A stretch of 64,000 nucleotides of DNA, taken from contig DXLP01000009.1 of the NCBI GenBank assembly GCA_019414645.1, positions 1-64,000 of the forward strand. The letters run 5' to 3'. A program made the translations under genes and the position numbers. The notes below the pieces were generated by a model. The model worked only from the letters and a program-made list of their open reading frames with translations. It did not search any database and was not told the DNA's origin. The stretch comes from Collinsella sp. (GTDB lineage: Bacteria; Actinomycetota; Coriobacteriia; Coriobacteriales; Coriobacteriaceae). This document shows positions 4,473 to 53,230 of the stretch, one piece after another (the first letter of the stretch is position 1; every line of letters begins with the position of its first letter).

Positions 4473-4639
4473 ACCGCAGGTTGAGCCAACGTCAGCGAGC
4501 GACGTCCAAGGCGAACAAGTTGGCATGAAAAAGGCAGGGCATTGACCTTCTGGTCATGCCCTGCCTTTTGAATGACAAATTGTCGCCTTGGGCGGCGCGC
4601 AGCGTCGAGCCGTTACGGCGTTTGGTAAAACGCCGTAAC
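4473..4639. repeat. Nested-hairpin element, copy 1
   Basis: The outer stem pairs CCAAGGCGA (4506-4514) plus CAA (4516-4518) with 4580-4591. Inside it, a 14-bp stem (4529-4542 with 4556-4569) carries a GACC-TTCT-GGTC apical hairpin. A second hairpin, GTTACGGCGTTT-ggta-AAACGCCGTAAC (4612-4639), ends one base from the stop codon of the LCP gene. Related copies lie at about 20110-20311, 37730-37859 and 52465-52625. On the minus strand the inner hairpin is followed by TTTTT and could terminate transcription. Confidence 0.75.
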
Positions 4640-5875
4640 TTAGTAGTTGGCTTCGTAGCCGTTGCCGTCACCGGTGGGCTCTTCGTAGTAGTCCGAATCG
4701 CTTGAATCGCTTGAGTCATCGGAATCGTCAGAGCTGACCGATGAGGTTGCGGTACCGTTTGCGTAGTCGTCAGACGTGTTGTTGTTCAGGTCGCCGATCG
4801 TAGAGCTGGAACCGTCGGAAAGACCCATGGTGTTGGGACCCTTGGGATCCTTGCCGGCATCGACGCGCTCCATCATTTCCTTGAGCTCGTCCTCGTAGAC
4901 AAAGACGTAGCTCACTCCGTCGATCATGGTGCTGTCGTCGGCGTACGAGGGCAGGTTGGCCGAGTAGATACCGTCGACATCCATACCGCGCATGGCATTG
5001 ACCGTAGCCACGATATCCTGAACGCTCATATCGGTTACGAGCATATCGGACAGCGAATTAACCAGGCCAAAGATCTTCGTGGCATCGAAGTTATTGAGAA
5101 TCTGGTTGGCAAGGGCGCCAAGCACCTGACGCTGGTGGCGCATGCGCGTGTAATCGCCGTCGGCATAGGTGTAGCGGCAGCGGGCATAGGTAAGGGCGGT
5201 GGCACCGTCCATATGCTGCTGGCCAGCGGTAATCTTAATATCCAGGTGCTCGGGGTCGTCAACATCATCGGTTGCGTTAATGTCGATACCGCCAACCGAA
5301 TCAATCAGCGCCTGCATACCGTCGAAGCTGACCTCGGCATAGTGGGAAATCTGAACACCGCACAGCTCGTTGACCGCCTCGACCATGGCCTCGGCGCCGC
5401 CAACGGTATGGCAGGCGTTGATCTTCATGGTCTCGCCCTTGTACTCGACCTTGGTGTCGCGCGGAACGGAAATGAGCGTCGCCTGCTTTTGCGTGGGGTC
5501 GATGCGTGCCAGGATAATCGAGTCGGCACGATACGTATCCTCGCCCGGACGGCCGTCGGTGCCAAGAAGCAGCACGTAGAACGGATCCTTTGCCTCATCG
5601 GTGTCAACCAGAACCCGACGCAGATTGTCGGTAATGACATTAGAATCGCCGAGCTTGCCCATAATGGTGGCAAACCACAGGCCGGCAGCGGTAGTGGCAC
5701 TCAGCAGCACGCCAAGCACGACAATGAGCGCGACGTGACGAATCGTGTGGCTACGACGACGTTGACGAGCGCGCTCGGAATAGCGAGCCACGTTATCGCG
5801 ACTGTAGATCTTGGCCTGCGCACCAGTTGAGGGTCTTCGGGCGGTGGTATCCGCGAGGGGCTTTTTATTAAACAT
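4640..5875 (-). CDS. LytR-CpsA-Psr (LCP) family cell-wall glycopolymer ligase
   Basis: LCP proteins attach phosphodiester-linked glycopolymers to peptidoglycan at the outer face of the membrane. The protein has a basic cytoplasmic N-terminus (to about 45), one membrane segment (about 46-70) and the catalytic LCP domain with LGTDGRPGEDTYRADS, ISVPRDT, KINACH and YARCRYTYADGDYTRMRHQ, including the conserved arginines and aspartates. The last 60 or so residues are a low-complexity acidic Ser/Asp tail. The ATG at 5875 is used; an in-frame TTG two codons upstream is an alternative. It begins 12 bases past the murA stop, so it shares a transcript with murA, coupling peptidoglycan precursor synthesis to wall decoration. 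The stop codon abuts nested-hairpin copy 1. Confidence 0.9.
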   Translation of the reverse strand: MFNKKPLADTTARRPSTGAQAKIYSRDNVARYSERARQRRRSHTIRHVALIVVLGVLLSATTAAGLWFATIMGKLGDSNVITDNLRRVLVDTDEAKDPFYVLLLGTDGRPGEDTYRADSIILARIDPTQKQATLISVPRDTKVEYKGETMKINACHTVGGAEAMVEAVNELCGVQISHYAEVSFDGMQALIDSVGGIDINATDDVDDPEHLDIKITAGQQHMDGATALTYARCRYTYADGDYTRMRHQRQVLGALANQILNNFDATKIFGLVNSLSDMLVTDMSVQDIVATVNAMRGMDVDGIYSANLPSYADDSTMIDGVSYVFVYEDELKEMMERVDAGKDPKGPNTMGLSDGSSSTIGDLNNNTSDDYANGTATSSVSSDDSDDSSDSSDSDYYEEPTGDGNGYEANY

Positions 5876-5887
5876 AGGCAACCTGTA

Positions 5888-19678: not shown

Positions 19679-20310
19679 GGGGTCCTCCCCTCTTAAGCGC
19701 CGGGCGGCGCGCGAATGTCGGAGCAGATTGTACGCGAGGGTGGCACGCGGCAAGGGACGATTGGAAGCGATTATCGAGAATCAGCCCAGAATTTTGCACC
19801 GAGCTCGCTCAAAGTGTTCATTCGCCGACGTCCAGATTTGCATTCGTCAAGCTTTTGGCAAGGTTGCCCAAAAACTGACCAATATCTAACCAAGAACATA
19901 CCAAATCACTTGACGCGCGACTCATCAAAAAATGCACTGCGACTTCTTGGACGATTTTTTGAGCAATATTTTCAATAGCAGATGAATGCTATTAATTACT
20001 TTGAGCAGGTAGACAGCTTAATTTCTAACAAAACAGATTAAATAAACTCGAAAAGTAATTTACCCAACCTAGTCATTTAAGAACGTCCCCAATGACTACC
20101 TCTAAGGCGCCGCAGGTTGAGCATACCGCATCCGGAGCAAGGCAACGCCGCATGTAGAGGACGGACAGCGAGCGGGTCGCATTTGAGACAAGGTGACGTG
20201 AAACGAAAGGGCGCTGACCTTCTGGTCGCGCCCTTGAAGTTGAACGTCAGATTGTCCAAATGCGGCCCGCGCAGCGTCGGCTGGTCCGCCGTTCGGTAGA
20301 ACGGCGGAAC
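19679..20310. other. Intergenic stretch between prfA and prmC
   Basis: This 632-bp gap holds no convincing gene. The part from about 19790 to 20090 is clearly more AT-rich than its surroundings and contains a long inverted repeat with a GCAGGTAGAC core. The part from 20110 holds nested-hairpin copy 3. The short open frame on the minus strand at 20077-20259 is the hairpin element read as codons. Confidence 0.7.
19994..20062. repeat. AT-rich inverted repeat with GCAGGTAGAC core
   Basis: Arms TAATTACTTT and AAAGTAATTTA (around 20052-20062) flank GAG...CTC and the core GCAGGTAGACAGCTT (20006-20020). The same core occurs in the long inverted repeats at 52209-52365 and 61791-61928. Confidence 0.6.
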
Positions 20311-20311
20311 C
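20110..20311. repeat. Nested-hairpin element, copy 3
   Basis: The outer stem is 20174-20185 with 20257-20268 (core CGCATTTG). The middle stem is TGACGT (20194-20199) with ACGTCA (20244-20249). The inner stem AAGGGCGC (20207-20214) closes the GACC-TTCT-GGTC apex. The second hairpin GTCCGCCGTTC-ggta-GAACGGCGGAAC (20284 onward) abuts the stop codon of prfA at 20311. Confidence 0.75.
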
Positions 20312-21378
20312 TACACAGCCTGTGCCAGCTTCTCGGCTCGCTCGGCGGCGGCGAGCGCCTCGATGACGGTGCCGAGCTGATCGCCCAGAAGGACGCCGTT
20401 GTAGGTGGAGTTGAAACCGATGCGGTGATCGGTCACGCGGTCCTGGGGCTGGTTGTAGGTACGGATCTTCTCGGAACGGTTGCCGTGGCCGATCTGGCTC
20501 TGGCGCTCAGCACCAAGCTCTGCCTGCTGCTTCTCGAGCTCCATCTCGTACAGACGAGCACGCAGCATCTGCATGCAGACCTCGCGGTTCTGAATCTGGG
20601 AGCGCTGCTCCTGCGACTGCACCACGGTGTTGGTGGGCAAGTGGGTGATGCGCACGGCGGAGTAGGTAGTGTTAACGCACTGACCGCCAGGGCCGGAGGC
20701 GCAGTAGGTGTCGATGCGCAGGTCGGACTGGTTGATCTGGACGTCAATTTCCTCGGCCTCGGGAAGTACGGCGACGGTAGCCGTGGAGGTCTGAATGCGG
20801 CCCTGGGACTCGGTCTTGGGAACGCGCTGGACGCGATGCACGCCGGACTCGAACTTCATGACGGAGTAGACGCGGTCGCCCTCGACCTTGAACTCGATGG
20901 ACTTAAAGCCGCCGGCCTCGCTGGGGCTGGAATCGAGCACGGTGGTCTTCCAGCCGCGCGATTCGCAGAAGCGCTGGTACATCTTGTACAAGTCGCCGGC
21001 GAAGATGGCTGCCTCGTCGCCACCGGCGGCGGAGCGAATCTCGACGATGGTGTTCTTGTCGTCGTTGGGGTCGCTCGGGATGAGCATGTACTTGATGTCT
21101 TCCTCGAGCTGGGGAAGCTTTTCCTCGTTCTCGGAGATGTCCATCTGGAGCATCTCCTTCTCGTCCGCATCGCTGGTGTCGCGGAGCATCTCCTTGGCGG
21201 CCTCGATGTCATCGAGCGCGCCGATGTACTCGCGCGAGGCAGCGATGAGGTCGGACTGGTGTGCGTACTCCTTGTTGAGACGCGTGAACTCCTTGATGTC
21301 GGAGGCGACGGCCGGGTCGGAAAGCTTCTTCTCGAGCTCCTCGTAGGCCTTAATGATCTTTTCGAGCTTGTCGCGCAT
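20311..21378 (-). CDS. prfA: Peptide chain release factor 1
   Basis: RF1 (355 residues) ends translation at UAA and UAG. The GGQ loop reads SGPGGQCVNTT, and the codon-recognition tripeptide is PKT in RVPKTESQGRIQTST, in the P-x-T class of RF1 rather than SPF of RF2. The start follows AAAGGAG. It is the substrate of PrmC, which is encoded downstream on the same strand. Cysteine after GGQ, where histidine is usual, is a mild deviation. Confidence 0.96.
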   Translation of the reverse strand: MRDKLEKIIKAYEELEKKLSDPAVASDIKEFTRLNKEYAHQSDLIAASREYIGALDDIEAAKEMLRDTSDADEKEMLQMDISENEEKLPQLEEDIKYMLIPSDPNDDKNTIVEIRSAAGGDEAAIFAGDLYKMYQRFCESRGWKTTVLDSSPSEAGGFKSIEFKVEGDRVYSVMKFESGVHRVQRVPKTESQGRIQTSTATVAVLPEAEEIDVQINQSDLRIDTYCASGPGGQCVNTTYSAVRITHLPTNTVVQSQEQRSQIQNREVCMQMLRARLYEMELEKQQAELGAERQSQIGHGNRSEKIRTYNQPQDRVTDHRIGFNSTYNGVLLGDQLGTVIEALAAAERAEKLAQAV

Positions 21379-22126: not shown

Positions 22127-25100
22127 CTACCGGTTCCGGCGCCGCAGGATAACGCCTGCGGCGATCAGCACCACCGCGCCGCCCGCGATGCCACCCAGGG
22201 CCATCGGCGACAAGCTGGTATCGCCCGTATACGGCAGACCCGGCTTCTCCTCCTTCGGCACCGGTGACTTGCTCGGCGGATTGGTGGGCGGCTCCGTCGG
22301 CGGGGTGGTCGGCGGCGTGTACGTGTTCTTGAACACCGGCGCCACGGCGCCGTCATAGGTTACCGTCGCCACCAGATGGCCCGCACCGTCGTCCGTCACC
22401 GTCACCGTTACCCGGTGCTCGGCCGCGTCGTACGTCACGTTCTTCTGACCGTCGTCCACCTCGGAGATGCTGTAGGCGTACGTTCCGGGCTTGTCGTACG
22501 AGATCGCCTCGAAGCCCACCGTGCCGTCCGCCGCGTTCTTTGCGGTCTGCAGCACCTTGCCGTCGGCATCCTTCAGCTGGAAGGAGAACTGCCCTTCCTT
22601 CAGGTCCTCGCCGCTCAGCACCTTGGAGGCCCCCAGCTTCACCTCAGTCGCGGCCGGCGCGTAACTGTTGCTGAACGCCACCGCATCCGCAGCCTTGCCG
22701 CCCTTGCTGTAGGCAACCTGCGCCTCCAGCGCGTGCGTCTCCGCATTCTCCGTCACCGTCACCGTCGCGGTAAAGACCGTCGTGTCGTAGGTGACGCCGT
22801 TCGCCGTCGCCCCTGCCCGCTCGGACACGGTGTAGACGTACGTCCCCACCTTGTCCAGCTGCAGCGGCGCGAAGCCGAACGTGCCGTCGGCGCCGTTCTG
22901 CACCGTCTGCACCACGTTACCGTCGGCGTCCTTCAGGTCGAAGAAGAACTCACCCTCGGCCAGGTCGCGGCCGGTCAGGGCCTTCGTTCCGGTAATCGTC
23001 GCCGTCGTTGCCGTCGGCGTGTAGGTGTTGGTGAAGGTCAGATCCGCGGCCGTCTTGTTCGCCGTCGCGGTCAGCTGGCCGCTGCCGTCGTCGGTCGCAC
23101 TCACCGTCACATCCAACACCGCATCGCTGTAAGTGATGGTGCCATCTTGGCCCGCAACCTCCTTCACCTGGTACGCATGCGAACCAGTCGCGGTGTACGA
23201 GATGGCCTTGAAGGTAAACGCGTTACCCACGTTCGTGGTCCGGTCGATCTCCTGCCCGGTGGCCACGTCAATCAGCGCGAACGTGAACTCGCCATCGGCG
23301 GGCGTCCGCATGGTGGCCGAATCGGTATTCTCAAGCACCTTGGTGCCGGAGATCTGGTAGGAGGTCGCGCCCGGCTGGTAGCTGTTCGCAAACGTCATGG
23401 TGTTGGGGGTGACGCCGTTCTCGGTGCCCTCGCTCGGCTTCACCGTGGAGTTCTCTACCACCAGCTTGCCGTCGTTGTTGTCCTTCACCACGTAGGTCAG
23501 GGTGTACGTCTTGCCGGTGTAGGTCACGCCCGGCACGCCCGGCGCGTCCCCCGTCGGCTGCACCTCGCGGACCGTGTAGGTAAAGGTGCCCGCATGGTCG
23601 AAGGTCAGCTTGTCGAAGGCAACCTTGCCGTGCGCATCGTTCTTCTGGGTCTGGATCACCGAGCCGTCAGACCCCACCAGCTCGAAGGCGAAGTCTCCCG
23701 CCTTTAGCTGATAGCTGCCGTCGTGCACGTCAACGCTCTTGGTGAGGGCGATCGCGCCGGAGTCCGTCGCCTGTGCCTCATAGGTGTTGGTGAAGCTGGG
23801 CTTCGTGACATTCGTGCCGTCGTAGGCGACGCTCGCCTGCAGCGTGCCGGCATTGTCCGCAACCGTCACCACGGCATGGTGCACCGCGGCGTCGTAGGTC
23901 ACGTAGGCCAGATCACCCTTCCGCTCCACGATGGTGTACTCGTGCGTGCCCGGCTTCGCGTAGGAGAAGGCGTCGAAGTTAACACTTCCGTCCGCGCCGT
24001 TGGTCGCGGTCCGGACGGGCTTGGCCCCGGCAAGCTGCTCAGCCGTCAGGTTGCCCTCGTACACATCGAAGGTGAACTCGCCGCACTTGGGGACGATCGG
24101 CGTGTTGTCGTCCTTCTTCACATAGCTCTTCTGCGCACCGAGGGCCAGGCCGGTCGCGGCCGGCTGGTAGGTGTTGGTGAAGGTATCCGAGCCGGATGCG
24201 CTCGTCACGATCGCCTTCGCATTCAGTGCTCCGTTCCCGCCGTCCGCGACCGTCACCGTATAGGTGAGGGGATGGCTGTCATAGACCATGCCCGGCTCCG
24301 CGCCCGGCTGCTCCACGATGGTGTAGGTGAAGTCCTTGCTCGCGGCGCCGTCCAAGTCGGAGAGCTGGAACTCGCGCGTGAAGCTGACCTTGCCGTTTGC
24401 ATCGTTCTTCGCGGTGTCGAGCACGTTGCCGGCAGCGTCCTTCAGGTCGAAGGTGAACTCGCCGTCCGCGGGCTTCGTCGTGTGGTCGAAGCCGTCCGCA
24501 ACCTTGATGGTCTTGGTCGCCGTCAGGGTTACGGAACCCTTTGCGTCGTAGGTGTTGTTGAAGGTGGGAGCCGTAGCGGCACCGTCATAGGTGACGGTCA
24601 CCTTCGTCTTGTTGTTGTCGCCCTGGTTCTGCTCTACCTTGACGTGGACCTTGACTTCCTTGGCGTCGTAGGCCACGCCGTCGACGGTCTGGCCGGCTTT
24701 CTCCTCCTTGAGCGTGTAGTCGTACTCGCCCAGGTTCAGGTTCTTGACGGCCAGCTCGACCTTGCCGCCCCGGTCGTTGGTGCCCTTGGCGACCTCGTTG
24801 CCGGCCTGGTCGTACAGGCCGAAGGTGAACGCGTCGGCCGTCAGGTCCTTGCCCGTGAGGATCTTCGTCGCCTCGACGGTAACGTCCGTCGTCGGCTTCG
24901 AGTTGGTGAAGGTCGGAACGTCGGCCTCGCCGTCGTAGGTGGCGGTCGCCTTTAGCTCGCCCTTCTCATCGGAGACCTTGATGTGGACCTTCACGTCCTT
25001 CGTGTCGTACACGACGGTCGGGTCGTTGCCGGCAACCTCCTTGATGGTGTAGTCGTGATCGCCCGGCGTGTCGTAGCTGATTGCCTGGAAGGCGACCTTG

Positions 25101-28100
25101 CCGTCCTTGTCATTCTGGACGGTCTGGATCACGTTGCCATCCTTGTCGAGCAGCTGAAACGTGAAGTCGCCCCCTGCGAGCTCGCCACCCGTGAAGCGCT
25201 TCGTCGCCTTGAGCGTTACCGAGGTCTCCTTCGGGTGGTACGTGTTCGTGAAGGTCTTGTCTCCACTCGTTACCTGCGGTGTGGCCGTCAGCGAGCCGGT
25301 GCCATCGTCCGCGACCGTCACCTTGTAGATGAGCGCATGGGTGTCGTAGACCATGCCCGGCTCCGTGCCCGGCTTCTCCGCGATGGTGTAGGTGAAGTCC
25401 TTGCTCGCAGCGCCGCCCAGGTTGGAGAGCGTGAACTTGCGCGTGAACTTCACCGTGCCATCGGCCTTGTTCGTCGTGGTGCCGAGCACCTTGCCGTCGG
25501 CGTCCTTCAGCTCGAACGTGTATTCGCCGCCCTTCAGCTTGGTGTCGTGCGTGAAGCCCGGCGCGACCGCAACGATCTTGGTCGCCGTCAGCTCCACGGA
25601 TCCCTTTGCGGTGTAGGTGTTCGTGAAGGTGGGGGCGACCGTCTTGCCGTCATCGTAGGTGACGCTCGCCTCCAACTGGCCGGCGGTGTCCACGACCTTC
25701 ACCACGGCGTGGTGAACCGCATCGTCGTAGACCACGTGGGACAGGTCGCCCTTCTGCTCCACGATAGTGTATTTGTACTCGCCGGCCTTGGTGTAGTTGA
25801 TGGCCGGGAAGGTAACGGTGCCGTCCTCGCCGTTCTTAGCGGTCTGGATGGGCTGCTTGCCCTTCAGCTGCTCAGCCGTCAGATCACCCTCGTACAGGTC
25901 GAAGGTGAACTCGCCGCCCTTGAGCGTGGCCTGCGTGTTGTCGGACTTCACGTACGATTTCTTCGCCGTGAGTGTAGCCAAGGTCTCGGCAGGCTGATAC
26001 TTGTTAGTGAAGGTCGGGGCATCATTCTTGTCGTCATAGGTGACAGTCGCCTTTGCCTTGTCACCGTCCGCCTTCACCGAGACGTGGACCTTCACCGCCG
26101 TGAAATCGTAGGTGATGGTCGAATCGCTGTCAGCGACCTCCTTGAGCGTGTAGTCGTACTCGCCTATGGTCAGACCGGTGAGGATGAGCTTAATCTTGCC
26201 GTCCTTGTCGTTCTGGACAGTCTGGATGGGATCAACCGTAGTCGTGTCGCCTTGATATAGGCCGAAAGTGAACGCACCAGCCGTCAGGTCCTTGCCCTTG
26301 AGGATCTTCGTCGCCTCGATAGTGGCGTCGGCCGTCGGCTTCGAGTTGGTGAAGGTCGGCACGGCCTTCTCGCCGTCGTAGGTGGCGGCCGCGCTCAGCG
26401 TGCCGTTCTTGTTATCGGTGACGCTAACGTGCACTTTCACCGTCTTGCCATCGTAAACGATAGTCGGGTCGGCGCCTTCGACCTCCTTGATGGTGTAGTC
26501 GTGCTCACCGGCCTCGGTGTAATAAATGGCCGGGAAGGTGATGTTGCCATTGGCATCGTTCTTTTCTTCGGCGACAACCTTATTGCCCTCCTTCACCTGG
26601 AATGAGAACTGCTGGTTCTCAAGGGTGCCGCCTGTAAAGTGCTTCTTCGCCGCCAGGGTTACGGAACCCTTTGCGTCGTAGGTGTTGTTGAAGGTGGCGA
26701 GGTTCACCTTGCCGTTCTTGACCTCAAGCGTCTCGCTCTTGTCATCGCCGCCCTTCTCTACCGTCACGCCTGTGACAGTCAGCTTGGCATTCTTGTCCTC
26801 AACCTTCACCGTGACGGTGTAGGTGGAATCGTCCATCGTCCAGCCGGCGTTCTGCACGCCGTCCGCCGCGGGATCATCATCAGCGTTGTGCACCTCGGTG
26901 AGCGTGAACGTGTACTCGCCCGCCTTGTTGAACGCCATATTCGAGAAGTCGACCGTCTGGCCCTTGTCCTTGATGATCTTGCCACTCGTGACCTTTGACT
27001 CAGCATGCTCATTGCTCGCCAGAGCATCCGAGACTGTGAGGGCACCGTCATCGATCTGCTTCTGCGTCTCCGGCGTGGCGGTCAGCGTGAACGAGAACGC
27101 CTTCTCCGTGCTCTCAACACCGGAGATCTTCTTCGTCACCTGCGGGGCCAGCTTATCGCTGGCAGTCGTCTTGTAGCTGTTCTTGAACGGGATGGTTGCC
27201 GTGTTGCCCTCGAGCGTTCCGTTGGGCGCAAACTCACGATAATCGACCTTCTCGCCATCACTGTTCAGAACTGTCGTCTCGATTTTCAGCGTACCGTCGC
27301 CGTTGTCGAACACCGCGATCTCGATGGTGTAGGCCGCCTTGTCGTAGGTGTAGCCGGCGGGAACGGACTTCGGCACGTTCTCTTCCACCCTGTATTGGTA
27401 GACGTTGGCGCCGTATTCATTGTTCACGTCGTCATGTGTGAACTGCAAGCCCTTCGGCAGCAGGCTCACGGTCTTGGTGTCCCCAAGCTTCATCTCGGGA
27501 ATCTTGACTGTCTTCGTCCCACCCGTGATGCCGAGCTTCTTCGCCGCGGCGTCGGCGGAGGTCAGGATGAACTTCGTGCCATCCAGACCCTCGGCCTGAT
27601 AGTCCTCGGGCGTCACCGTAAAGCTGAATGTGCTGCTCACATCACCGGTGCCGGTGAATTTCTTCTCAATCTGCAGACCGGCCTTCGCACCGTACTCAAC
27701 CGTCTCGACCTTGTACTCGTTCTTAAACGGGACGATAGGCGTAGCGGGCTTCGCATCGCGACTCGAGACCGTCTGCACGTAGTTGGTCGTGGTATCGAGG
27801 CCCTTAATCGCCTCGGCCGTCAGCGCATCAACGTTGTCGTTCTCGCCAACGAGCGCCGTCACGTCCGGGCCCTTCACGATGGTCGTCTCGGTGTAGAGCT
27901 GGCCTTTGTTGTCCGGATTCGGCTTCACCGCAATGAGCACGTAGGCGTCACCGGGGTACTCGGTGTCATACGTGTATCCACCAGCGTTGGCGCCATGCGC
28001 CTCAGACACCTTGTACACATACACCTTGTTGTAGCTCAGCTGCGTGAAGTTCATCTTCAGCTTGCCGGACATCGTGGCGGTCTGCGTATCGTCACCGTCA

Positions 28101-31100
28101 TCCTTGCCCACGGTGTTCTTGAACGACTTATCGGTATCAGCCGGCTCCGGGGCCGTCGTACCGTTATACGTCATCGCCTCGATGGTGAACGGGAACATGC
28201 CATTCTTCAGCGGGGCACCAACCAGAGTCTTGGTCACATCGATGCCCGCATAGGTACCGGAGGCCGTATAGGTGTTGGTAAACGCGGCAGCGCCCGTCAC
28301 CTGTCGGTCGACATCCGTCATCGCCTGCTTGTTGTCGTACGCAACCGTCGCGGTCAGCTTACCGGTATGCGTGCCGTTCTCGATATCGGTCACTGTGTAG
28401 GTCACCGTGGACGTATGGCCGTCATAGCTGATGCCGGTCTTGTCCACGTTCTCCGACGCCTTCTCGTTCACCTTGAATTTGTACGTGCCAGGCTTGGTAA
28501 ACACCAGGTCGCCCACACCAAAGGCTGCGGTACGGGTCACGGAAGAACCATCGCCGGAGATCGAAATCTTAGCAGCAATATCCCCAACGTCCTCGCCCGT
28601 GCCCGTCTTTTGGATAACGACCTTGTTTTTAACCGCTTTCGTCGTGGCGTCATCCGCCGGCGTCAGTGTGAAATCAAACGTATCGCTCGTCTCCCACGCG
28701 CGCCCGGTGAACGTCTTCTGCACCCTGATTGGCGCCGACGTCGCCTGGGTCACCGTGTAGGTGTTCTTGAACGGAATGTATCCGTTGGCGTCCGTCAGCT
28801 GCGTGCCGTCGGCCTTCCAATACGTGACCGTGGAGGACAGGCACCTACCCGTCCCAGACTCGTTATCAACCTGCTGGTTCTTCACCAGCACGTAGTACAC
28901 CGCGTCATCGTAGCCCATGCCACTGGACGTCGATGTATCGGAATCCTTGACCTCGGTCACCCTGTACACGTAAGTGAGGTTCTCGCTGCCCATCGTATAG
29001 GTGATCTGCGGGAACGCGGCGATACCGCCGTCATCGTTCTTCGCCGTGGTCGTGGTGGACGTGCACCCCATAGGCATGGGGACCTTGCTGGCATCGACGC
29101 TGTAGGCAAGATCGCCGAACTTAAGGGTGCCACTCGGCACGGCATCATTCTTCATCCCGCCGAGTGCCTCGAGCTGGAACGTGAACTTATCCTTCACAAG
29201 CGGATTTGCACCGGACTGGTCGACATACGTCTTCTGCACGTGGAAGGAGATGGTCTTCTCATCGGTGTTATAGGTGTTCGTTATCTTGGCGATTTTGTCA
29301 GCAACCTCGATCGGGCTGTCCTCATGGCTCACGCCGTCGTCGGTGTAGGTCTGCTCCATCTTGACTGCCGGCTGCGACAGCGTGCCGTCGCCGCTATCCT
29401 TCACCGTCACCGTGACGCGGTAGGAAGCGCTTGAATACCCGAACCCGGGCAGCCAGCTAGCGTCGTTTTGAGACGGCGTGGCCTCGGCGATGAGATAGGT
29501 GTAGGTGCCGGGCTTGGTGTACTCAATCTCGCCGAAGTCGAACTTGTCCCCGTTCTCAACAGTCTTCACAACCTGCTTCATACCACTCACGGGTGCATTC
29601 TCGGCACCGTCGGGCATCGGCGTGCCCTTGTCCGCGCGCAGGTAAATCTTGAAGCTATCGCCATCTTTCCAGTCACGGCCCTGGAGCACCTTCTGCGCCC
29701 AGAACGCATTGGTGAGCGTCACCGGCGACTTTACGCTGTAGGTGTTTGTGAACACCAGCTTGTTGGCTTCGGCCAACGTGCCGTCGGCATTCTGTTTCGC
29801 GATCGTGCCGGAGATGCTGTCGCCCTCGCCGCCCAGGGCGTTGCCGCCCTGCTCGCGCTTGGTCAGCGTGAAGCCGGCCGGCATCTTGCCCGCGCGGGTC
29901 AGCTCCTGAACCGTATACTTGTCACCCTCGGCGAGACCGTACACGCGGATCGTCTGGCCGGCCGTGATGGTCTGCTCGCGTCCGTTCGTCAGGTCGAACA
30001 TATCGCCGACCTGCTTCTCATCGGCCGCGCCCGCCTTCTCGAAGACTGCAGCCTTATACGTCTTCCCCTTGGGCACGGTGAACTTGAAGGTGAACTCCGC
30101 ATCCTTATTGCCCGTCAGTCCATCGGGCACGTCAACCTTCTTCGTCACCTCGAGGCTCGCCTCGCGCTTGTTAGCCACGCGCACGCAGGTGGCGCCCGTA
30201 AACAGGGCATTCAGGTTGTTCATGTCGCGCAGATCGGCACGGGCACCTTTCGACTTGGTCCCCTTGGGCTGCTCGTCCTGGGTGATACCCATACGTATCC
30301 AGCCCGTCTCGGTCTCCAGGCGGTAGGGTTTGCCCTCCTCGGTGGGCCCATACTGGTAGACACGTCCGTTGGCACCGTACTTGAGGTGCACCGTGTCGCC
30401 GGCACCGGCGAGATCGACATTGCTCCACGACAGATTACCGTCAGTATCGGTCACACCATTCGAGGTCTGCCGCACACCCTTGATCCACGTGAGCGTGTTG
30501 TCGATGTCGCCCTCTGCGCCAAACTGGCCCAGGCTCTTCATCAGCGCGCCCGGGCCCACAAACGTCGAAACGCCGTCATCGCGCGTACCGGCATCGGCAT
30601 GGACGCCGTAATCGTCCACAATCACTTTGGTGAGCGTGTCGTTGAGCAGGAAACCGCTCGGCGCTGAGATTTCCTTCAGGTAGTAGGTGCGTTTCGTAAG
30701 CGGCTTGTGCTCCTTGCTCGTATTCGGGAATATGCCCGCACCTTCGAGCGGGACCGGGTTGCCGACCGACCCCGTCGTCAGGGTGTCGTAGGGGGTCTGC
30801 TCGCCCTTGAGCACGACCTTGCCGTTTGCGTCTGTTGTCACCTGATCGGCCGTGTACAGGCCGAACTTCGCCCCCTCAACGGGCTTACCCGCGGTATCGG
30901 TCTTCTGCACGAACAGGCGGTTCTGGATGTTCGTGACGAGCAGGCGCGTGGCGAACTGTCGCTGGAAATTCTTCTCGCCGCTGGGGAGGTCATCGCTGAA
31001 CACGTGGACCGTGTTGTCCGTATTCGCGTTGGCGATGGAACTCGCCGTTGTGTGGTAGATGGCCACCGTGTACTCGGCATCCTTGCGGGCATCACCGCTC

Positions 31101-32923
31101 AGCAGGTAGTAGTACTTGGAGATGTCACCGGGCAGATTTTGAATCTCTACCTGGTACTGGCCGCTCGTGTTGAGCGTGAAGGCGTGCAGGTCCTTCTTCG
31201 CCGCCTCGATAGCGCCGGCCTTGCTCGGCTTCTCGGCGAGGGTGTACCCCATTCCCGTCGATGGGTCGCCCGACACGGCGTACCAATTGTTCTGATTTTT
31301 GATATCTGCGTTTGCGCTTTTATCGCGCTTGAGCACCACAGCGAACAGTATGCCAGACTTCAGGTTGACGGTCTCGTCGGACTTCGTCAGGTCATCATTC
31401 GCCTTGTACACGTTCACCGGTGCGGTGATGGTCTCCTTCGCGCCGGCAAACGCACCAGTCTTCCACACGACGCTGTCCGCATCCATACCGCCGCGGTTGA
31501 TGATGACGCCGCCCGCGCCGTTCTCAGCGCTCGCGGGCACGTACTCGAGCTGCATGCTGCCACCTGTCGCCGTGAGACTCGAGCGGTATCCCTCCGGCAC
31601 GCGCGTCTCCTTCAGGAGGTAGTACTTGTTACCGTGATTCTTGTTGTAGAGATCGTCGAAGTTGATGACGCCGTTGTCATCGTCGTTCGTGAGCGTTAGG
31701 TGGCCGGCCTCGTCCGTGGTGCCGGAGCCGAGGAGCGCGTTCTTGTCATTGGTCGTATCTGTAAAGTTCTCGTCTGTTTTGTACAGCGCGAACTCGGCGC
31801 TCTGTACGAACTTGCCGTCCTGGTCGAACTTTATGATGTCGGACTCGGGCACCGTCACGAGGTTGAACTTGAGCTCCATGTTGGAGTCGGTGGCGCCGCG
31901 CTCCAGGTAGAAGAACTTGAGGGTGTGGTTGGTGTCGTCGGCGAAGGTGTTGCCTTCCCAGCTCGTGTCGCCGGCCTTGCCCGCCTTCTGGTACTTGCTC
32001 TTCAGCGTGCCGTTGTAATTGTCGTTTACCTTAATGTCGCCCGTATGAAAGTTGATGCTCAGACTCGCGCGGTTGTGAATACCGCCGATATCACCCACGA
32101 GGACATCATCGATGAACACCCAGACGTCATCATCGCCGGCGAACTCGAAGGTCATGTCATTATTATTGTTCGTCAGGCCGCCCTTGGGCTGCACGAATCG
32201 CGTGAACATTGAGAGACCGAAGTGGTGGTTGACGGGTTTGCCGCCGTTGTAGTGCGAATCACCGGTGTTGTCTGCCTTGATGCCGGTTTGGACGAGCTGG
32301 CCGTTTTCCTCTTTGAACACCTTGTCTGCCGCGTCGAACGGGAAGAACTGACCCTGGTGGGACGAATCGCCCACTTTGTCAATGCCCCAGGTGCCATAGA
32401 TGTCGAAGGCATTCTTGTCAGCGTTGTAGGCTGCGTAGTTTTCGGAGCTGTCATAGACGTAGTAGCCGCCCTGAACCTTGAGGAGGCCCGTCACGCCAAA
32501 ATGGGACGTCTTGCCGGTCTGGGCAGAGGAATCGAACAGGTAGCGGAGGGACTCGTCGCCCAAGGCTTCGGAAAGCTTCGGGTAGCCGTCTGAAAGCGTG
32601 TTGTTGACGATGCCGGGCCGCGGGCTCGTGCCGCCCGTCCATTGGTTGAGCGGCCCATCACCCTTGCCGTCGTTAAACTGGAACTTGTGGCCTGCGTTGA
32701 CGCCGCCGCTGCCGGAAACCGACAGATGGTCATCGGGATTCACCCAGTAATCAAACAGGTTGATCGTCGTCCCCGAGGGCGAGGTCGTCGGAACCGTGTG
32801 GTCGGAGATCGCCGCCTCGGCACGAAGCGGCAGGAAGAAACTCGCCGTCAGCGCGACGGCGAGGGCCAGAACAATCGCATATGGCGAAACCGGGCGCAGC
32901 CCACGACGGCGGCCATAAGACAT
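22127..32923 (-). CDS. Giant LPXTG-anchored, isopeptide-repeat surface protein
   Basis: This 3598-residue protein is predicted to be exported and covalently attached to the wall. Residues 1-38 are a signal peptide (LALAVALTASFFLPLRAEAA). A PA14/fibro-slime-like domain follows, with GDDDVWVFIDDVLVGDIGG near 260-280. Next come two SpaA/Cna-B-like domains (FVQSAEFALYKT; NRLFVQKTDTAGKPVEGAKF) up to about 1000, then roughly 18 tandem Spy0128/FctA-type domains of about 130-140 residues. Each starts with a lysine strand (ATKxLTG type) and ends with FTNTY or a variant, the Lys and Asn partners of intramolecular isopeptide bonds. A Pro/Thr spacer, LPYTG near 3563, a membrane helix and RRRNR finish it. 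No sortase lies nearby. The start at 32923 is favoured because the signal peptide follows at once; 23 extra codons are open upstream. Confidence 0.9.
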   Translation of the reverse strand: MSYGRRRGLRPVSPYAIVLALAVALTASFFLPLRAEAAISDHTVPTTSPSGTTINLFDYWVNPDDHLSVSGSGGVNAGHKFQFNDGKGDGPLNQWTGGTSPRPGIVNNTLSDGYPKLSEALGDESLRYLFDSSAQTGKTSHFGVTGLLKVQGGYYVYDSSENYAAYNADKNAFDIYGTWGIDKVGDSSHQGQFFPFDAADKVFKEENGQLVQTGIKADNTGDSHYNGGKPVNHHFGLSMFTRFVQPKGGLTNNNNDMTFEFAGDDDVWVFIDDVLVGDIGGIHNRASLSINFHTGDIKVNDNYNGTLKSKYQKAGKAGDTSWEGNTFADDTNHTLKFFYLERGATDSNMELKFNLVTVPESDIIKFDQDGKFVQSAEFALYKTDENFTDTTNDKNALLGSGTTDEAGHLTLTNDDDNGVINFDDLYNKNHGNKYYLLKETRVPEGYRSSLTATGGSMQLEYVPASAENGAGGVIINRGGMDADSVVWKTGAFAGAKETITAPVNVYKANDDLTKSDETVNLKSGILFAVVLKRDKSANADIKNQNNWYAVSGDPSTGMGYTLAEKPSKAGAIEAAKKDLHAFTLNTSGQYQVEIQNLPGDISKYYYLLSGDARKDAEYTVAIYHTTASSIANANTDNTVHVFSDDLPSGEKNFQRQFATRLLVTNIQNRLFVQKTDTAGKPVEGAKFGLYTADQVTTDANGKVVLKGEQTPYDTLTTGSVGNPVPLEGAGIFPNTSKEHKPLTKRTYYLKEISAPSGFLLNDTLTKVIVDDYGVHADAGTRDDGVSTFVGPGALMKSLGQFGAEGDIDNTLTWIKGVRQTSNGVTDTDGNLSWSNVDLAGAGDTVHLKYGANGRVYQYGPTEEGKPYRLETETGWIRMGITQDEQPKGTKSKGARADLRDMNNLNALFTGATCVRVANKREASLEVTKKVDVPDGLTGNKDAEFTFKFTVPKGKTYKAAVFEKAGAADEKQVGDMFDLTNGREQTITAGQTIRVYGLAEGDKYTVQELTRAGKMPAGFTLTKREQGGNALGGEGDSISGTIAKQNADGTLAEANKLVFTNTYSVKSPVTLTNAFWAQKVLQGRDWKDGDSFKIYLRADKGTPMPDGAENAPVSGMKQVVKTVENGDKFDFGEIEYTKPGTYTYLIAEATPSQNDASWLPGFGYSSASYRVTVTVKDSGDGTLSQPAVKMEQTYTDDGVSHEDSPIEVADKIAKITNTYNTDEKTISFHVQKTYVDQSGANPLVKDKFTFQLEALGGMKNDAVPSGTLKFGDLAYSVDASKVPMPMGCTSTTTTAKNDDGGIAAFPQITYTMGSENLTYVYRVTEVKDSDTSTSSGMGYDDAVYYVLVKNQQVDNESGTGRCLSSTVTYWKADGTQLTDANGYIPFKNTYTVTQATSAPIRVQKTFTGRAWETSDTFDFTLTPADDATTKAVKNKVVIQKTGTGEDVGDIAAKISISGDGSSVTRTAAFGVGDLVFTKPGTYKFKVNEKASENVDKTGISYDGHTSTVTYTVTDIENGTHTGKLTATVAYDNKQAMTDVDRQVTGAAAFTNTYTASGTYAGIDVTKTLVGAPLKNGMFPFTIEAMTYNGTTAPEPADTDKSFKNTVGKDDGDDTQTATMSGKLKMNFTQLSYNKVYVYKVSEAHGANAGGYTYDTEYPGDAYVLIAVKPNPDNKGQLYTETTIVKGPDVTALVGENDNVDALTAEAIKGLDTTTNYVQTVSSRDAKPATPIVPFKNEYKVETVEYGAKAGLQIEKKFTGTGDVSSTFSFTVTPEDYQAEGLDGTKFILTSADAAAKKLGITGGTKTVKIPEMKLGDTKTVSLLPKGLQFTHDDVNNEYGANVYQYRVEENVPKSVPAGYTYDKAAYTIEIAVFDNGDGTLKIETTVLNSDGEKVDYREFAPNGTLEGNTATIPFKNSYKTTASDKLAPQVTKKISGVESTEKAFSFTLTATPETQKQIDDGALTVSDALASNEHAESKVTSGKIIKDKGQTVDFSNMAFNKAGEYTFTLTEVHNADDDPAADGVQNAGWTMDDSTYTVTVKVEDKNAKLTVTGVTVEKGGDDKSETLEVKNGKVNLATFNNTYDAKGSVTLAAKKHFTGGTLENQQFSFQVKEGNKVVAEEKNDANGNITFPAIYYTEAGEHDYTIKEVEGADPTIVYDGKTVKVHVSVTDNKNGTLSAAATYDGEKAVPTFTNSKPTADATIEATKILKGKDLTAGAFTFGLYQGDTTTVDPIQTVQNDKDGKIKLILTGLTIGEYDYTLKEVADSDSTITYDFTAVKVHVSVKADGDKAKATVTYDDKNDAPTFTNKYQPAETLATLTAKKSYVKSDNTQATLKGGEFTFDLYEGDLTAEQLKGKQPIQTAKNGEDGTVTFPAINYTKAGEYKYTIVEQKGDLSHVVYDDAVHHAVVKVVDTAGQLEASVTYDDGKTVAPTFTNTYTAKGSVELTATKIVAVAPGFTHDTKLKGGEYTFELKDADGKVLGTTTNKADGTVKFTRKFTLSNLGGAASKDFTYTIAEKPGTEPGMVYDTHALIYKVTVADDGTGSLTATPQVTSGDKTFTNTYHPKETSVTLKATKRFTGGELAGGDFTFQLLDKDGNVIQTVQNDKDGKVAFQAISYDTPGDHDYTIKEVAGNDPTVVYDTKDVKVHIKVSDEKGELKATATYDGEADVPTFTNSKPTTDVTVEATKILTGKDLTADAFTFGLYDQAGNEVAKGTNDRGGKVELAVKNLNLGEYDYTLKEEKAGQTVDGVAYDAKEVKVHVKVEQNQGDNNKTKVTVTYDGAATAPTFNNTYDAKGSVTLTATKTIKVADGFDHTTKPADGEFTFDLKDAAGNVLDTAKNDANGKVSFTREFQLSDLDGAASKDFTYTIVEQPGAEPGMVYDSHPLTYTVTVADGGNGALNAKAIVTSASGSDTFTNTYQPAATGLALGAQKSYVKKDDNTPIVPKCGEFTFDVYEGNLTAEQLAGAKPVRTATNGADGSVNFDAFSYAKPGTHEYTIVERKGDLAYVTYDAAVHHAVVTVADNAGTLQASVAYDGTNVTKPSFTNTYEAQATDSGAIALTKSVDVHDGSYQLKAGDFAFELVGSDGSVIQTQKNDAHGKVAFDKLTFDHAGTFTYTVREVQPTGDAPGVPGVTYTGKTYTLTYVVKDNNDGKLVVENSTVKPSEGTENGVTPNTMTFANSYQPGATSYQISGTKVLENTDSATMRTPADGEFTFALIDVATGQEIDRTTNVGNAFTFKAISYTATGSHAYQVKEVAGQDGTITYSDAVLDVTVSATDDGSGQLTATANKTAADLTFTNTYTPTATTATITGTKALTGRDLAEGEFFFDLKDADGNVVQTVQNGADGTFGFAPLQLDKVGTYVYTVSERAGATANGVTYDTTVFTATVTVTENAETHALEAQVAYSKGGKAADAVAFSNSYAPAATEVKLGASKVLSGEDLKEGQFSFQLKDADGKVLQTAKNAADGTVGFEAISYDKPGTYAYSISEVDDGQKNVTYDAAEHRVTVTVTDDGAGHLVATVTYDGAVAPVFKNTYTPPTTPPTEPPTNPPSKSPVPKEEKPGLPYTGDTSLSPMALGGIAGGAVVLIAAGVILRRRNR

Positions 32924-32951
32924 GACGGACCACCGCTCGCGCGGCCGATGT

Positions 32952-33032
32952 TCACCAGGAAGTTCCCTGCTTAGACACCCCCCCGGTAGCATTATTCACG
33001 AGTCGAGACGTCGTCTCTCTGAGCTCCTGCAT
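32952..33032 (-). CDS. Possible 26-codon leader ORF upstream of the adhesin gene
   Basis: A very strong ribosome site (GGGGAGGAAATT then ATG) starts a short frame, MQELRETTSRLVNNATGGVS and six more residues, that stops 28 bases before the adhesin start codon. The giant gene's own site (GGTGG) is weaker. This could be a translated leader controlling adhesin expression, or the remnant of a longer upstream frame (the same frame is open for 34 more codons). No protein family is recognised. Confidence 0.4.
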   Translation of the reverse strand: MQELRETTSRLVNNATGGVSKQGTSW

Positions 33033-37596: not shown

Positions 37597-37729
37597 AATC
37601 TGCCTTCCCTGTTGAATCGTATGCTGACGACTTAACAGGATATACGCCAGCGACCAGCAGTGCAGCACAAGCTCGAAAAATTAATAGACACATGGTAGTC
37701 ATTGGGGACGTCGATGTTTTGGCAATGCC

Positions 37730-37859
37730 GGCGAGCGACGTCCAGAGCGAACAAGTGGCATGAAAAAGACAAGGCATGACCAGAAGGTCTATGCCTTGCC
37801 TTTTGAATGACAAATTATCGCTCTGGACGGCACGCAGCATCGACCGAGCGGCGGAACCT
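37730..37859. repeat. Nested-hairpin element, copy 2
   Basis: The outer stem GTCCAGAGCGA (37740-37750) pairs perfectly with 37818-37828. The inner stem ends in a GACC-AGAA-GGTC apex, the reverse complement of the apex in copies 1 and 3. The second hairpin has lost its left arm: only CGGCGGAACC remains, right before the stop codon of the epimerase gene at 37860. Confidence 0.7.
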
Positions 37860-38753
37860 CTAGAGCAAGGTGACGCTAAAGCTGCGTTTATCGGTAGCGC
37901 CGGGGGCCAAGGTGATGGTGTTGACCTTGTGCTCAAAGACGTCGTCCTCGGTGGACATGGTGGTGTGACCGGTCCAAGGCTCGAGCGCCACAAACGGGGC
38001 GTCGTTGGCGGCAGACCACACGCCGATGTACTTAAAGCCCTCAAAGTCGATCTTGACGCCGTGGCCCGACTTGCGGCCGCGCAGCGTGAGCGTGGAGCCC
38101 GGGGTATCGGTGAACATGATGGCGTCGTTATCGAAGCTGCGGTGCGTGATGGGCAGCACGTCCGAGTTATCGGGAGCCTTGTAGCTACCCTCGAACGTCA
38201 TGAGGCCATCGGGCGTGATGATGGGGGCCTCGTTGGTCCAAGCCTCGGTAAATGCCAGCTCGTAATCCTCGAACGCCTCGTCCTCGGCACCGGGAGCAGG
38301 TACGTTAAATGCGGGGTGGCCGCCCACCGAGAACGGCAGGTCCACGTCGCCGGTATTGGTGACGGCAAAGGTCTGGGTAAGTGTGGCGTCACCAGTCAGG
38401 GCATAGGTCATGTTGAGCTTAAAGTGGAACGGAAAGGCCTTGAGCGACTCGAGCGTGTCGGTGATCTCGTACGTTACCGAGGAGCCGTCCTCCGAAACCT
38501 CGACCAGCTTGTGCTCGACGATGCGCGCGAGGCCGTGGCGCGGCATCTCGCAGGTGCCAGCCGCAGACGTCGCCGTGTTGTTGCGCAGCGAGCCCACAAT
38601 GGGGAACAGGATGGGCGCATGCTTGCCCCAAAAGGCGGGGTCGCCCTGCCACAGATACTCGTTGCCGTTGAGGGCAAGGCTCGTGAGCTGGGCGCCCATG
38701 GAATCGATGGCCGCGGTGAGGCTGCCGAGCTTGATGGTAGTGACGGTAGACAT
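37860..38753 (-). CDS. Aldose 1-epimerase family protein
   Basis: This 297-residue GalM-superfamily beta-sandwich protein resembles the LacX/YeaD-like branch. The pattern includes LWQGDPAFWGKHAPILFPIVG, an RHG near 80, and the catalytic-region SVGGHPAFNVP. It would equilibrate sugar anomers, but this branch often has unknown or sugar-phosphate substrates. The start at 38753 follows GGAGGAAG. Its stop abuts nested-hairpin copy 2. Confidence 0.85.
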   Translation of the reverse strand: MSTVTTIKLGSLTAAIDSMGAQLTSLALNGNEYLWQGDPAFWGKHAPILFPIVGSLRNNTATSAAGTCEMPRHGLARIVEHKLVEVSEDGSSVTYEITDTLESLKAFPFHFKLNMTYALTGDATLTQTFAVTNTGDVDLPFSVGGHPAFNVPAPGAEDEAFEDYELAFTEAWTNEAPIITPDGLMTFEGSYKAPDNSDVLPITHRSFDNDAIMFTDTPGSTLTLRGRKSGHGVKIDFEGFKYIGVWSAANDAPFVALEPWTGHTTMSTEDDVFEHKVNTITLAPGATDKRSFSVTLL

Positions 38754-38832
38754 GCTACTTCCTCCAAAAGTAAACAATAGTGTCGAGGGCTATTGTCCCA
38801 CTCTTGGCGGCGGGGTTGAGCGACAGGCGCAG

Positions 38833-52365: not shown

Positions 52366-52464
52366 GCAAAGCAACTTCGGAAGGGTGTCACCGCAGCCCA
52401 AAATGATCCCTTTTCCTCCGTCCCCAAGGGATCAACATGCACCGAAGCGGACCGTGGCGGAATC

Positions 52465-52625
52465 ACAGGTTGAGGACGGACAGCGAAAGCGTTCCTAAGC
52501 GAGCAAGGTGGCGTGAAAGAGGAGGGCATAGGCCTTGTGGCCATGCCCGACGATTGAACGCCAGATTGCCGCTTAGGAACGCTTGCAGCGTCGAGCGGTT
52601 ACGGCGTTTGGCAAAACGCCGTAAC
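52465..52625. repeat. Nested-hairpin element, copy 4
   Basis: The outer stem AAGCGTTCCTAAGC (52487-52500) pairs perfectly with 52571-52584. The middle stem is TGGCGT (52509-52514) with ACGCCA (52558-52563). The inner stem GGGCAT closes GGCC-TTGT-GGCC. The second hairpin GTTACGGCGTTT-ggca-AAACGCCGTAAC is at 52598-52625. Unlike copies 1-3 it does not abut a gene end. Confidence 0.75.
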
Positions 52626-52726: not shown

Positions 52727-53230
52727 ATGTGTGTTGAACCACTCGTCCTTCCACATGAGCCCGGCGGTGACCCGTCGCAACCGGTAGACATACCCGAAGC
52801 GGTCAGCGCCGAAGACAAACTCGCCAAGCGCATCCTGAGCGGCCTGGGCTTTTGCGGCCATTACATGCACTTTCATGGCGGGGGCGTGTCCGGCAAGGCG
52901 CCCATCGTCTGCCTGCTCGCCAAGCAGCCCACCGGCGAGCTTTCCCAGCAAGAACTCGGCATGCACTTCGACCTCAAGCCGGGATCCCTTTCCGAGATCC
53001 TGTCCAAGCTCGAAATGGGCGGCATCATCGAACGCAGTCGCAATCCCAAAGACCGCCGGCAGCTCACCATACGCCTAACCGAAGCGGGGTGGGAAAAGGC
53101 CCGCGTTGAGCAGGCCGCCCGCATTCGCTTTAGAGAGCAGGCCTTTAGCGCCCTCACCCACGACGAGCGCGAGCAACTCGCCGAAATGCTCGAGAAAATC
53201 CGTGTAACCTGGGAGGAACTGGATGATTAA
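52727..53230 (+). CDS. MarR-family transcriptional regulator
   Basis: This 167-residue regulator has a winged helix in its middle (LSQQELGMHFDLKPGSLSEI, then LSKLEMGGIIERSRNPKDRRQ, the wing). The N-terminal 40 residues are an extension. It precedes and overlaps, by 8 bases, the first of two ABC exporter genes, so it most likely senses a toxic compound and derepresses the exporter. A GAAAGGAG site lies before the ATG. Confidence 0.9.
   Translation: MCVEPLVLPHEPGGDPSQPVDIPEAVSAEDKLAKRILSGLGFCGHYMHFHGGGVSGKAPIVCLLAKQPTGELSQQELGMHFDLKPGSLSEILSKLEMGGIIERSRNPKDRRQLTIRLTEAGWEKARVEQAARIRFREQAFSALTHDEREQLAEMLEKIRVTWEELDD

Follow-up and report, generated by a model that had tools for sequence, protein, structure and literature searches.

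The four nested hairpin structures in a 64,000-nucleotide stretch of Collinsella sp. DNA (positions 1-64,000 of contig DXLP01000009.1; the whole stretch was analysed and is called the window below) are copies of a dispersed palindromic repeat of about 170 bases, probably a small mobile element that spreads by way of a folded single strand. As far as we searched, the repeat forms a large, real and apparently undescribed family of a known kind, the small mobile palindromes, in another bacterial class. The original prediction, made from the window alone, had missed that the structure is dispersed, lies at gene ends and invades genes; the element is a repeat rather than a class of RNA genes.

Reading and folding the window confirmed that all four copies are present with the nested pairing that had been described. 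On the strand of the neighbouring gene, the unit consists of a stop codon, a hairpin A, GACGCTGC, a long hairpin B, CTCGCTGA and then about 20 bases; hairpin B combines stems of free sequence (outer, middle and inner) with fixed internal loops. Each window copy shows on the minus strand the order hairpin A, linker, hairpin B, CTCGCTG or a close form of it, and a C module of about 20 bases. The linker ends in GACGCTGC in the window copies, with GATGCTGC in copy 3. The minus-strand limits of the copies are 4639-4473, 20310-20146, 37857-37709 and 52625-52461, and a profile built from the four scores them at 120-181 bits. Their parts are as follows.

4612..4639, minus strand: hairpin A of copy 1, directly after the TAA stop of a LytR-family gene (4640-5881; Pfam PF03816)
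4599..4611, minus strand: linker of copy 1, ending in GACGCTGC
4500..4598, minus strand: hairpin B of copy 1, its layout read on the minus strand, its better-folding strand the plus strand
4473..4499, minus strand: CTCGCTG and C module ACGTTGGCTCAACCTGCGG of copy 1
20284..20310, minus strand: hairpin A of copy 2, directly after the TAG stop of prfA (20311-21378)
20271..20283, minus strand: linker of copy 2
20173..20270, minus strand: hairpin B of copy 2, of the GCATTTG type
20146..20172, minus strand: CTCGCTG and C module of copy 2
20110..20125, minus strand: TATGCTCAACCTGCGG, which resembles the remnant of the C module of an older element (compare L047)
37848..37857, minus strand: truncated hairpin A of copy 3, 2 nt past the TAG stop of a galM-like gene (37860-38777)
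37834..37847, minus strand: linker of copy 3
37736..37833, minus strand: hairpin B of copy 3, its apical hairpin inverted relative to the other copies
37709..37735, minus strand: CTCGCCG and C module of copy 3
52598..52625, minus strand: hairpin A of copy 4, with no gene end nearby on the minus strand (the closest stop of an open frame is 95 nt away)
52585..52597, minus strand: linker of copy 4
52488..52584, minus strand: hairpin B of copy 4, with three tandem UC/UC mismatches on the minus strand (GA/GA on the plus strand)
52461..52487, minus strand: TTCGCTG and C module of copy 4

The gene at 37860-38777 is one that we take to be galM-like from our own reading, and copy 4 lies upstream of a plus-strand frame at 52727-53230. 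Folded whole, copies 1, 2 and 4 are more stable on the plus strand (-96.0, -100.1 and -93.2 kcal/mol, vs -91.5, -88.6 and -83.3 kcal/mol on the minus strand), whereas in copy 3 the plus strand is the worse folder (-65.2 kcal/mol vs -74.8 on the minus strand, here the gene strand). Several details of the original prediction had to be revised. Copy 2 had been drawn too wide, from 20110, which takes in the piece resembling an older element's end; its limits are 20310-20146. The outer stems had been listed in the wrong order, CGCATTTG being that of the 20-kb copy and GTCCAGAGCGA that of the 37.7-kb copy. They had also been called unrelated, which is true of the 20-kb copy, whose stem is of another type, but not of the other three, where CCAAGGCGA, CCAGAGCGA and CCTAAGCGA have a common pattern. 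What had been read as a GACC/GGCC tetraloop is a stem, GACC/GGTC, and not a tetraloop. Finally, the layout said to be common to all four holds for the nested pairing but not for the 37.7-kb copy in full, with its truncated first hairpin and inverted apical hairpin.

Two further features of the window were seen. At the galM site (37771-37796), the apical hairpin reads as the reverse complement of its usual form, as though it had been turned round in place between its arms, and inverted apical hairpins were also found by eye at L020, L036 and L077. On the minus strand, an open frame of 3621 codons at 22127-32992 probably encodes one giant protein.

Selection on the structure, which had been proposed from four copies, was borne out in a larger set. 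An alignment of 34 copies from the window and its relatives has standard pairs in 97.1% of pair cells, 27 of its 52 pairs change on both sides, and its covariation score is 0.360 vs 0.127 for shuffled alignments; none of 500 shuffles reached the observed pairing, the number of covarying pairs or the covariation score. The number of pair types was ordinary, the observed value being reached by 232 of 500 shuffles. At the gathering cut-off, Rfam gave no match over the whole window, in line with the earlier view that no named class fits, and the sole match above cut-off among 14 further loci was a tRNA. Collinsella-1, an RNA that its source, in the part available, assigns to Actinobacteria of the human gut (PMC2864571), had been named as the first motif to compare. 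The likeness lies in host group and gut habitat: the model (RF01700) has no match at cut-off in the window and is not among the sub-threshold matches (E<=10) of copies 1 and 4, the two copies searched to that depth. The best sub-threshold match of copy 1, the microRNA-precursor model mir-789, was rejected at 32 bits against a cut-off of 100. The literature searched showed no description of this family; it may be present as an unnamed prediction among 3161 predicted structures (PMC8040213).

Further copies in related genomes, which the original prediction had asked to be sought, proved to be numerous. BLAST detected the unit in 11 of 13 genomes of the same genus and in 1 of 8 others, and a covariance model found the element in 34 of 43 genomes of the genus. 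Across the order, with at most 21 candidates scored per genome, the model found it in 48 of 149 genomes, belonging to 24 of 77 genera. In the complete genome G048 it occupies 30 distinct places, and in G106, of another family, 34; because a palindrome matches both strands, the rows found per genome are not clean copy numbers (41 rows for the 30 places of G048). A DNA-pattern scan of named genomes returned at least 80 loci, 55 from Coriobacteriia by title and 25 from other organisms, and among the matches listed the stem was present in 53 of the 55 vs 1 of the 25. Titles of Coriobacteriia among these listed matches include Collinsella, Gordonibacter, Eggerthella, Paraeggerthella, Adlercreutzia, Slackia, Enteroscipio, Atopobiaceae and others. 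Across families the flanking motifs are constant and the B stems vary from copy to copy. The second family sampled (f2) is, to judge by the named records, Eggerthellaceae. The phage records searched gave no match, and the plasmid records gave one, Collinsella aerofaciens NZ_OY725717.1 (899,693 bp), which has the element at 13 places, none with an annotation under it; this record may be a piece of chromosome filed as a plasmid. In the genome G001, copies of the element lie at or next to the ends of several contigs (L015, L016, L018, L022, L024 and L025), and the hairpins may thus interrupt assembly from short reads.

Selection sees one strand of the element, that opposite the gene. We compared the two strands of 122 distinct B hairpins, taken from relatives of C. 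aerofaciens, from other Collinsella and from the second family. By a margin of >1 kcal/mol, the opposite strand was the more stable in 112 of them and the gene strand in 6, whereas 940 other inverted repeats of the same loci, used as a control, split 325 vs 311. A further group from named genomes, which contains chance pattern matches and was kept out of the 122, favoured the opposite strand in 81 of 108 cases and the gene strand in 17. The isolated non-Watson-Crick pairs of 117 deduplicated copies were A-C 53 times and G-U 15 times on the gene strand, hence G-U 53 and A-C 15 on the other, and loop mismatches on the better strand, counted in its own predicted fold, were mostly A-G (420) and G-G (105), followed by A-C (46), A-A (9) and pyrimidine-pyrimidine (9). 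In the second family (62 copies), pairs 12 and 13 are Watson-Crick or A-C on the gene strand, bar one G-U each, and Watson-Crick or G-U on the other strand. Deamination of an exposed gene strand would push in the opposite direction. Taken by itself, hairpin A favours neither strand (G-U 30, A-C 24); 73 closely related Collinsella copies gave G-U 42 vs A-C 29, and it was the diverged set that decided the matter, for B but not for A.

These results bear on what the folded molecule could be. Cruciform DNA, which had been offered as an alternative to RNA, is disfavoured because the strand opposite the gene folds better, with its G-A, G-G and G-U pairs, in 112 of 122 copies against an even split in the control. 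DNA energy parameters also favour this strand (107 of 117), and therefore the strand bias does not tell RNA from single-stranded DNA. If it were RNA, each copy could be a gene for an antisense noncoding RNA, transcribed opposite the neighbouring gene and acting as a structured molecule, as the selection of that very strand would suggest, together with its tandem G-A and UG/GU pairs, a type of pairing often seen in RNA. We consider this improbable: in a scan for sigma70-like promoters before the better-folding strand, sites scoring >=8 occurred in 0/26, 2/14 and 2/65 copies vs 4, 2 and 8 shuffled, and this lack of enrichment weighs against an RNA gene at each copy, while in compact tandem sites the promoter would fall inside the next gene.

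Most copies of the element sit at gene ends. We parsed 37 copies from the window and from sampled loci of two Collinsella genomes, 36 of them with a hairpin A, and in 30 of these 36 the element starts -1 to +4 nt from the stop codon of a same-strand ORF (60 codons or longer); by comparison, 143 of 5000 random places lay within -1 to +5 nt of a stop. The remaining six comprise two behind a terminator, three that either adjoin a divergent promoter-like region or have no gene end, and one behind an older hairpin A. A second set of 70 loci (67 from the second family, 3 from G088 of the Collinsella family) has the stop just before A in 43, inside A in 7 and past A in 11, with 6 lacking an upstream frame and 3 unparsed; hairpin A is doubtful at L203 and L212 (stop inside A) and at L307 (past A), which were not relied on. 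Among 38 parsed copies of two second-family genomes, a tandem gene comes next in 22, with a predicted start no more than 30 nt from the element's end in 16 of the 22, and a convergent gene faces the element in 5.

Such placement could mean that the hairpins are a resident part of the messenger, kept to protect or process the upstream transcript, with mobility only the route by which they came in, a reading that overlaps with ours. The contact with stop codons in 30 of 36 copies, the tandem genes next to 22 of 38, 16 of them with nearby predicted starts, and the conservation of sites across species and genera would all fit it, as would two precedents in the available part of PMC2229807, where YPAL might influence the stability of the upstream transcript and where orientation matters for the effect of ERIC on its mRNA. 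However, the messenger strand is the worse folder and carries the destabilising mismatches, and the upstream genes, 16 of 20 scanned having a Pfam family, share no common theme; we regard this explanation as unlikely, if the best of the alternatives. Far less probable still is a portable transcription terminator that replaces the gene's own. One type of hairpin B does end in TTTTT, and at L081, where the galM element is missing, a normal terminator is present, but no uninterrupted stretch of five T was seen in the other B types read, a tandem gene follows many copies directly, and in 9 of 105 copies a terminator-like hairpin comes after the element within 130 nt (0 of 105 shuffled).

The copies are also oriented with respect to replication. 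In four complete genomes, 104 of 112 listed copies are co-directional with the replication fork and 8 run against it. For genes, the counts in two of these genomes are 137 of 195 and 131 of 184 (about 70%, after a codon-position filter); this excess over the gene average (P ~6e-9) may reflect housekeeping genes, which tend to a higher leading-strand bias anyway. The count used 28 of 41 matches in G096 and 20 of 31 in G119, assumed the terminus to lie opposite dnaA, and rounded the length of G119. A recombination site in single-stranded DNA, similar to attC or REP/RAYT sites, that folds on the strand opposite the gene and is processed at the replication fork would fit the co-direction, the stop-codon contact with folding of the bottom strand, and the DNA energies that favour that strand in 107 of 117. 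We give it as little weight as the antisense RNA. The general bias of housekeeping genes could produce the co-direction, the folding strand would be the leading-strand template and not the exposed strand, and no attC core was seen by eye. Such cores have the form RYYYAAC/GTTRRRY and go with an integron integrase.

Nor was the element seen next to transposases of the Y1 type, a further point against that explanation. These genes are present in the genus, and the 20 that we read by eye, from 260 nt before to 330 nt after, are adjoined by other hairpins or none and in no case by the element, so that no mobilising enzyme was found among them; a copy in G009 lies about 6 kb from a Y1 gene. A lack of Y1 hits coincides with a lack of the element in G002, G006, G035, G041 and G042, but G024 and G030 have a Y1 hit and no element, and we conclude nothing from this. 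A second hairpin family, with free arms and a loop like GGGGAC or GTCCCC, was encountered in the window (20070-20098) and at loci such as L180, L183, L184, L190, L192-L194 and L198. It adjoins many RAYT-like Y1 genes and many copies of the element, and is likely the true REP family of these genomes.

Comparison of fixed sites revealed both persistence and turnover. Among the matches listed, close relatives keep the element, whole or truncated, behind the same prfA, galM and LytR-gene stops, with L081 of G028 as the sole exception, where galM is followed by an ordinary terminator and another repeat. The types of A, B or C nevertheless differ between relatives at these three gene ends. G001 and G008 (17 and 16 sampled copies) have 10 sites in common, 5 of them with visibly different variants, and two genera have at least 4 sites in common, with wholly different B hairpins at L275/L308 and compensatory changes at L286/L293 and L278/L294. 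Conversely, identical B hairpins occur at two places of G106 (L277, L281), and B hairpins behind different genes of two genera are 92% alike (L288, L290). Of 13 outgroup loci at prfA, 10 were parsed; 9 lack the element and L071 has a related double hairpin. At L071 (G043), two divergent B-type hairpins stand in tandem without a hairpin A, and the first has the strand order of its internal loop swapped. At L014 and L016, the copy is followed by what is left of an older B, its 3' half, broken off close to the apex (2 among 100 such 3' halves). No target-site duplication was seen at the sites compared and no clean pair of empty and filled sites, the one empty site (L081) holding another repeat. 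Since many sites are common to species and some to genera, movement is rare or old, and the swapping of variants could be gene conversion.

The element has also entered protein-coding genes. In 10 of the 70 loci of the second set, the reading frame is open through the whole element, each time in the same frame (GAC GCT GCG), and all 10 proteins carry Pfam domains in that frame. They are RecQ (2), the small chain of carbamoyl-phosphate synthase, CarA (4), a GNAT-TsaD fusion, PhnJ, fumarase and a HAD hydrolase. In the last three the element forms the C-terminal end; in CarA it stands before the tail segment YLDIDIA(A/E)DRLAGW in three genomes and after it in one; and in RecQ it lies between YFGE and the zinc ligands of CGNC. 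This RecQ loop ranges from 6 to 130 residues in the 117 proteins measurable by a motif script among the best 120 of 7970 scored homologues. Uptake of the element by this loop has occurred in both orientations: a forward match is found in the insert of P0002 (E 2e-34) and a reversed one in that of P0007 (E 5e-22), with weaker matches in the opposite sense as expected of a palindrome. In P0060, two elements appear to be present. Across the homologues P0001-P0120, the hypervariable YFGE-CGNC loop has also collected other low-complexity inserts. The Collinsella copies tested include no in-frame copy. Two kinds of candidate were left out of these counts: many "antisense ORFs", which we take for shadow frames of high-GC genes, and one match in the window, taken as a chance match to the pattern.

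The explanation that we favour is the mobile element. Its intermediate would be a folded single strand, of RNA or of single-stranded DNA, which an enzyme acting in trans may recognise by its G-A and G-U loops; the same putative enzyme would copy or recombine the element into new places. Copies would persist in the least harmful positions: after a stop codon, ahead of the next Shine-Dalgarno sequence, or within a protein loop that tolerates them. The orientation that is kept would put the tighter-folding strand outside the messenger RNA. Several observations sit less well with this account: the lack of a target-site duplication and of a clean pair of empty and filled sites; the many sites common to species or genera; the absence of the element beside the 20 Y1 genes read; the absence of in-frame copies among the Collinsella copies tested; the lack of a strand preference in hairpin A; the better folding of copy 3 on the gene strand; and, where a long gap precedes the next gene, as at prfA, a closer contact with the stop than mere tolerance would lead one to expect. 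More tentatively, and with the balance of our judgement still against it, the element might represent a new mobile class, in which a folded strand held by G-A and UG/GU pairs, with stems that are rewritten yet stay paired, docks behind stops and repeatedly enters protein loops in frame, either way round, by means of an enzyme not yet linked to such elements. Since common gut bacteria offer complete genomes and many species, the movement of protein-invading palindromes and their effects on proteins would become testable there. The strand-specific structure offers an approach to the intermediate, and the RecQ loop, from 6 to 130 residues and with inserts in both orientations, is a natural experiment on proteins that gain segments. 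The element would also explain unannotated hairpins at gene ends and odd protein inserts rich in Ala, Ser, Gly and Pro in this class.

Protein-invading palindromes are best known from Rickettsia. In the portions of the sources consulted, the Rickettsia palindromic elements (RPE) are palindromes of 105-146 bp (about 150) in some ten variant families, lying either in intergenic DNA or, in frame, within conserved protein-coding genes (PMC2229807, PMC10969869), and the first report on them, going by its title, called them selfish DNA (cited in PMC10969869). The present element, at about 170 bases, is likewise a palindrome of roughly this size in many copies, partly in frame in conserved genes, and is likened to RPE by this habit. 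It differs in its host class, the Coriobacteriia, and in having two hairpins with fixed linkers, contact with stop codons, strand-specific folding and free stems.

The likeness to RPE, and to YPAL of Yersinia, rests on their descriptions and not on their sequences, and we claim no descent from RPE, YPAL or ERIC. YPAL makes target-site duplications of 3-26 bp, which sets it apart from the Coriobacteriia element, where none were seen; in a 2006 abstract it is said to insert closely downstream of stop codons. As excerpted in PMC2229807, YPAL (RU-2) is palindromic, about 168 bp long, partly in frame and co-translated with upstream genes, and ERIC (RU-1) is a 127-bp hairpin repeat between genes, sometimes in frame, whose orientation matters and which has a terminal TA and target duplications. 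ERIC differs from our element in its host and in these last two features, which were not seen in Coriobacteriia. A trait of MITEs, YPAL and ERIC, presence or absence at orthologous sites, was found for the element at galM (L081) and among the prfA outgroups. REP elements with their RAYT genes are also dispersed palindromes outside genes, but they are shorter, 20-40 bp in the part of PMC3733652 available, and our element was seen by eye beside none of the 20 Y1 genes read. In the literature read, the combination of a strand-specific structure of tandem mismatches, contact with the stop codon and entry of one loop in both orientations is not reported for the known members. The interpretation that we favour from these comparisons is that the element works like RPE in its in-frame invasion of genes and like YPAL and ERIC in its hairpins at gene ends and between genes.
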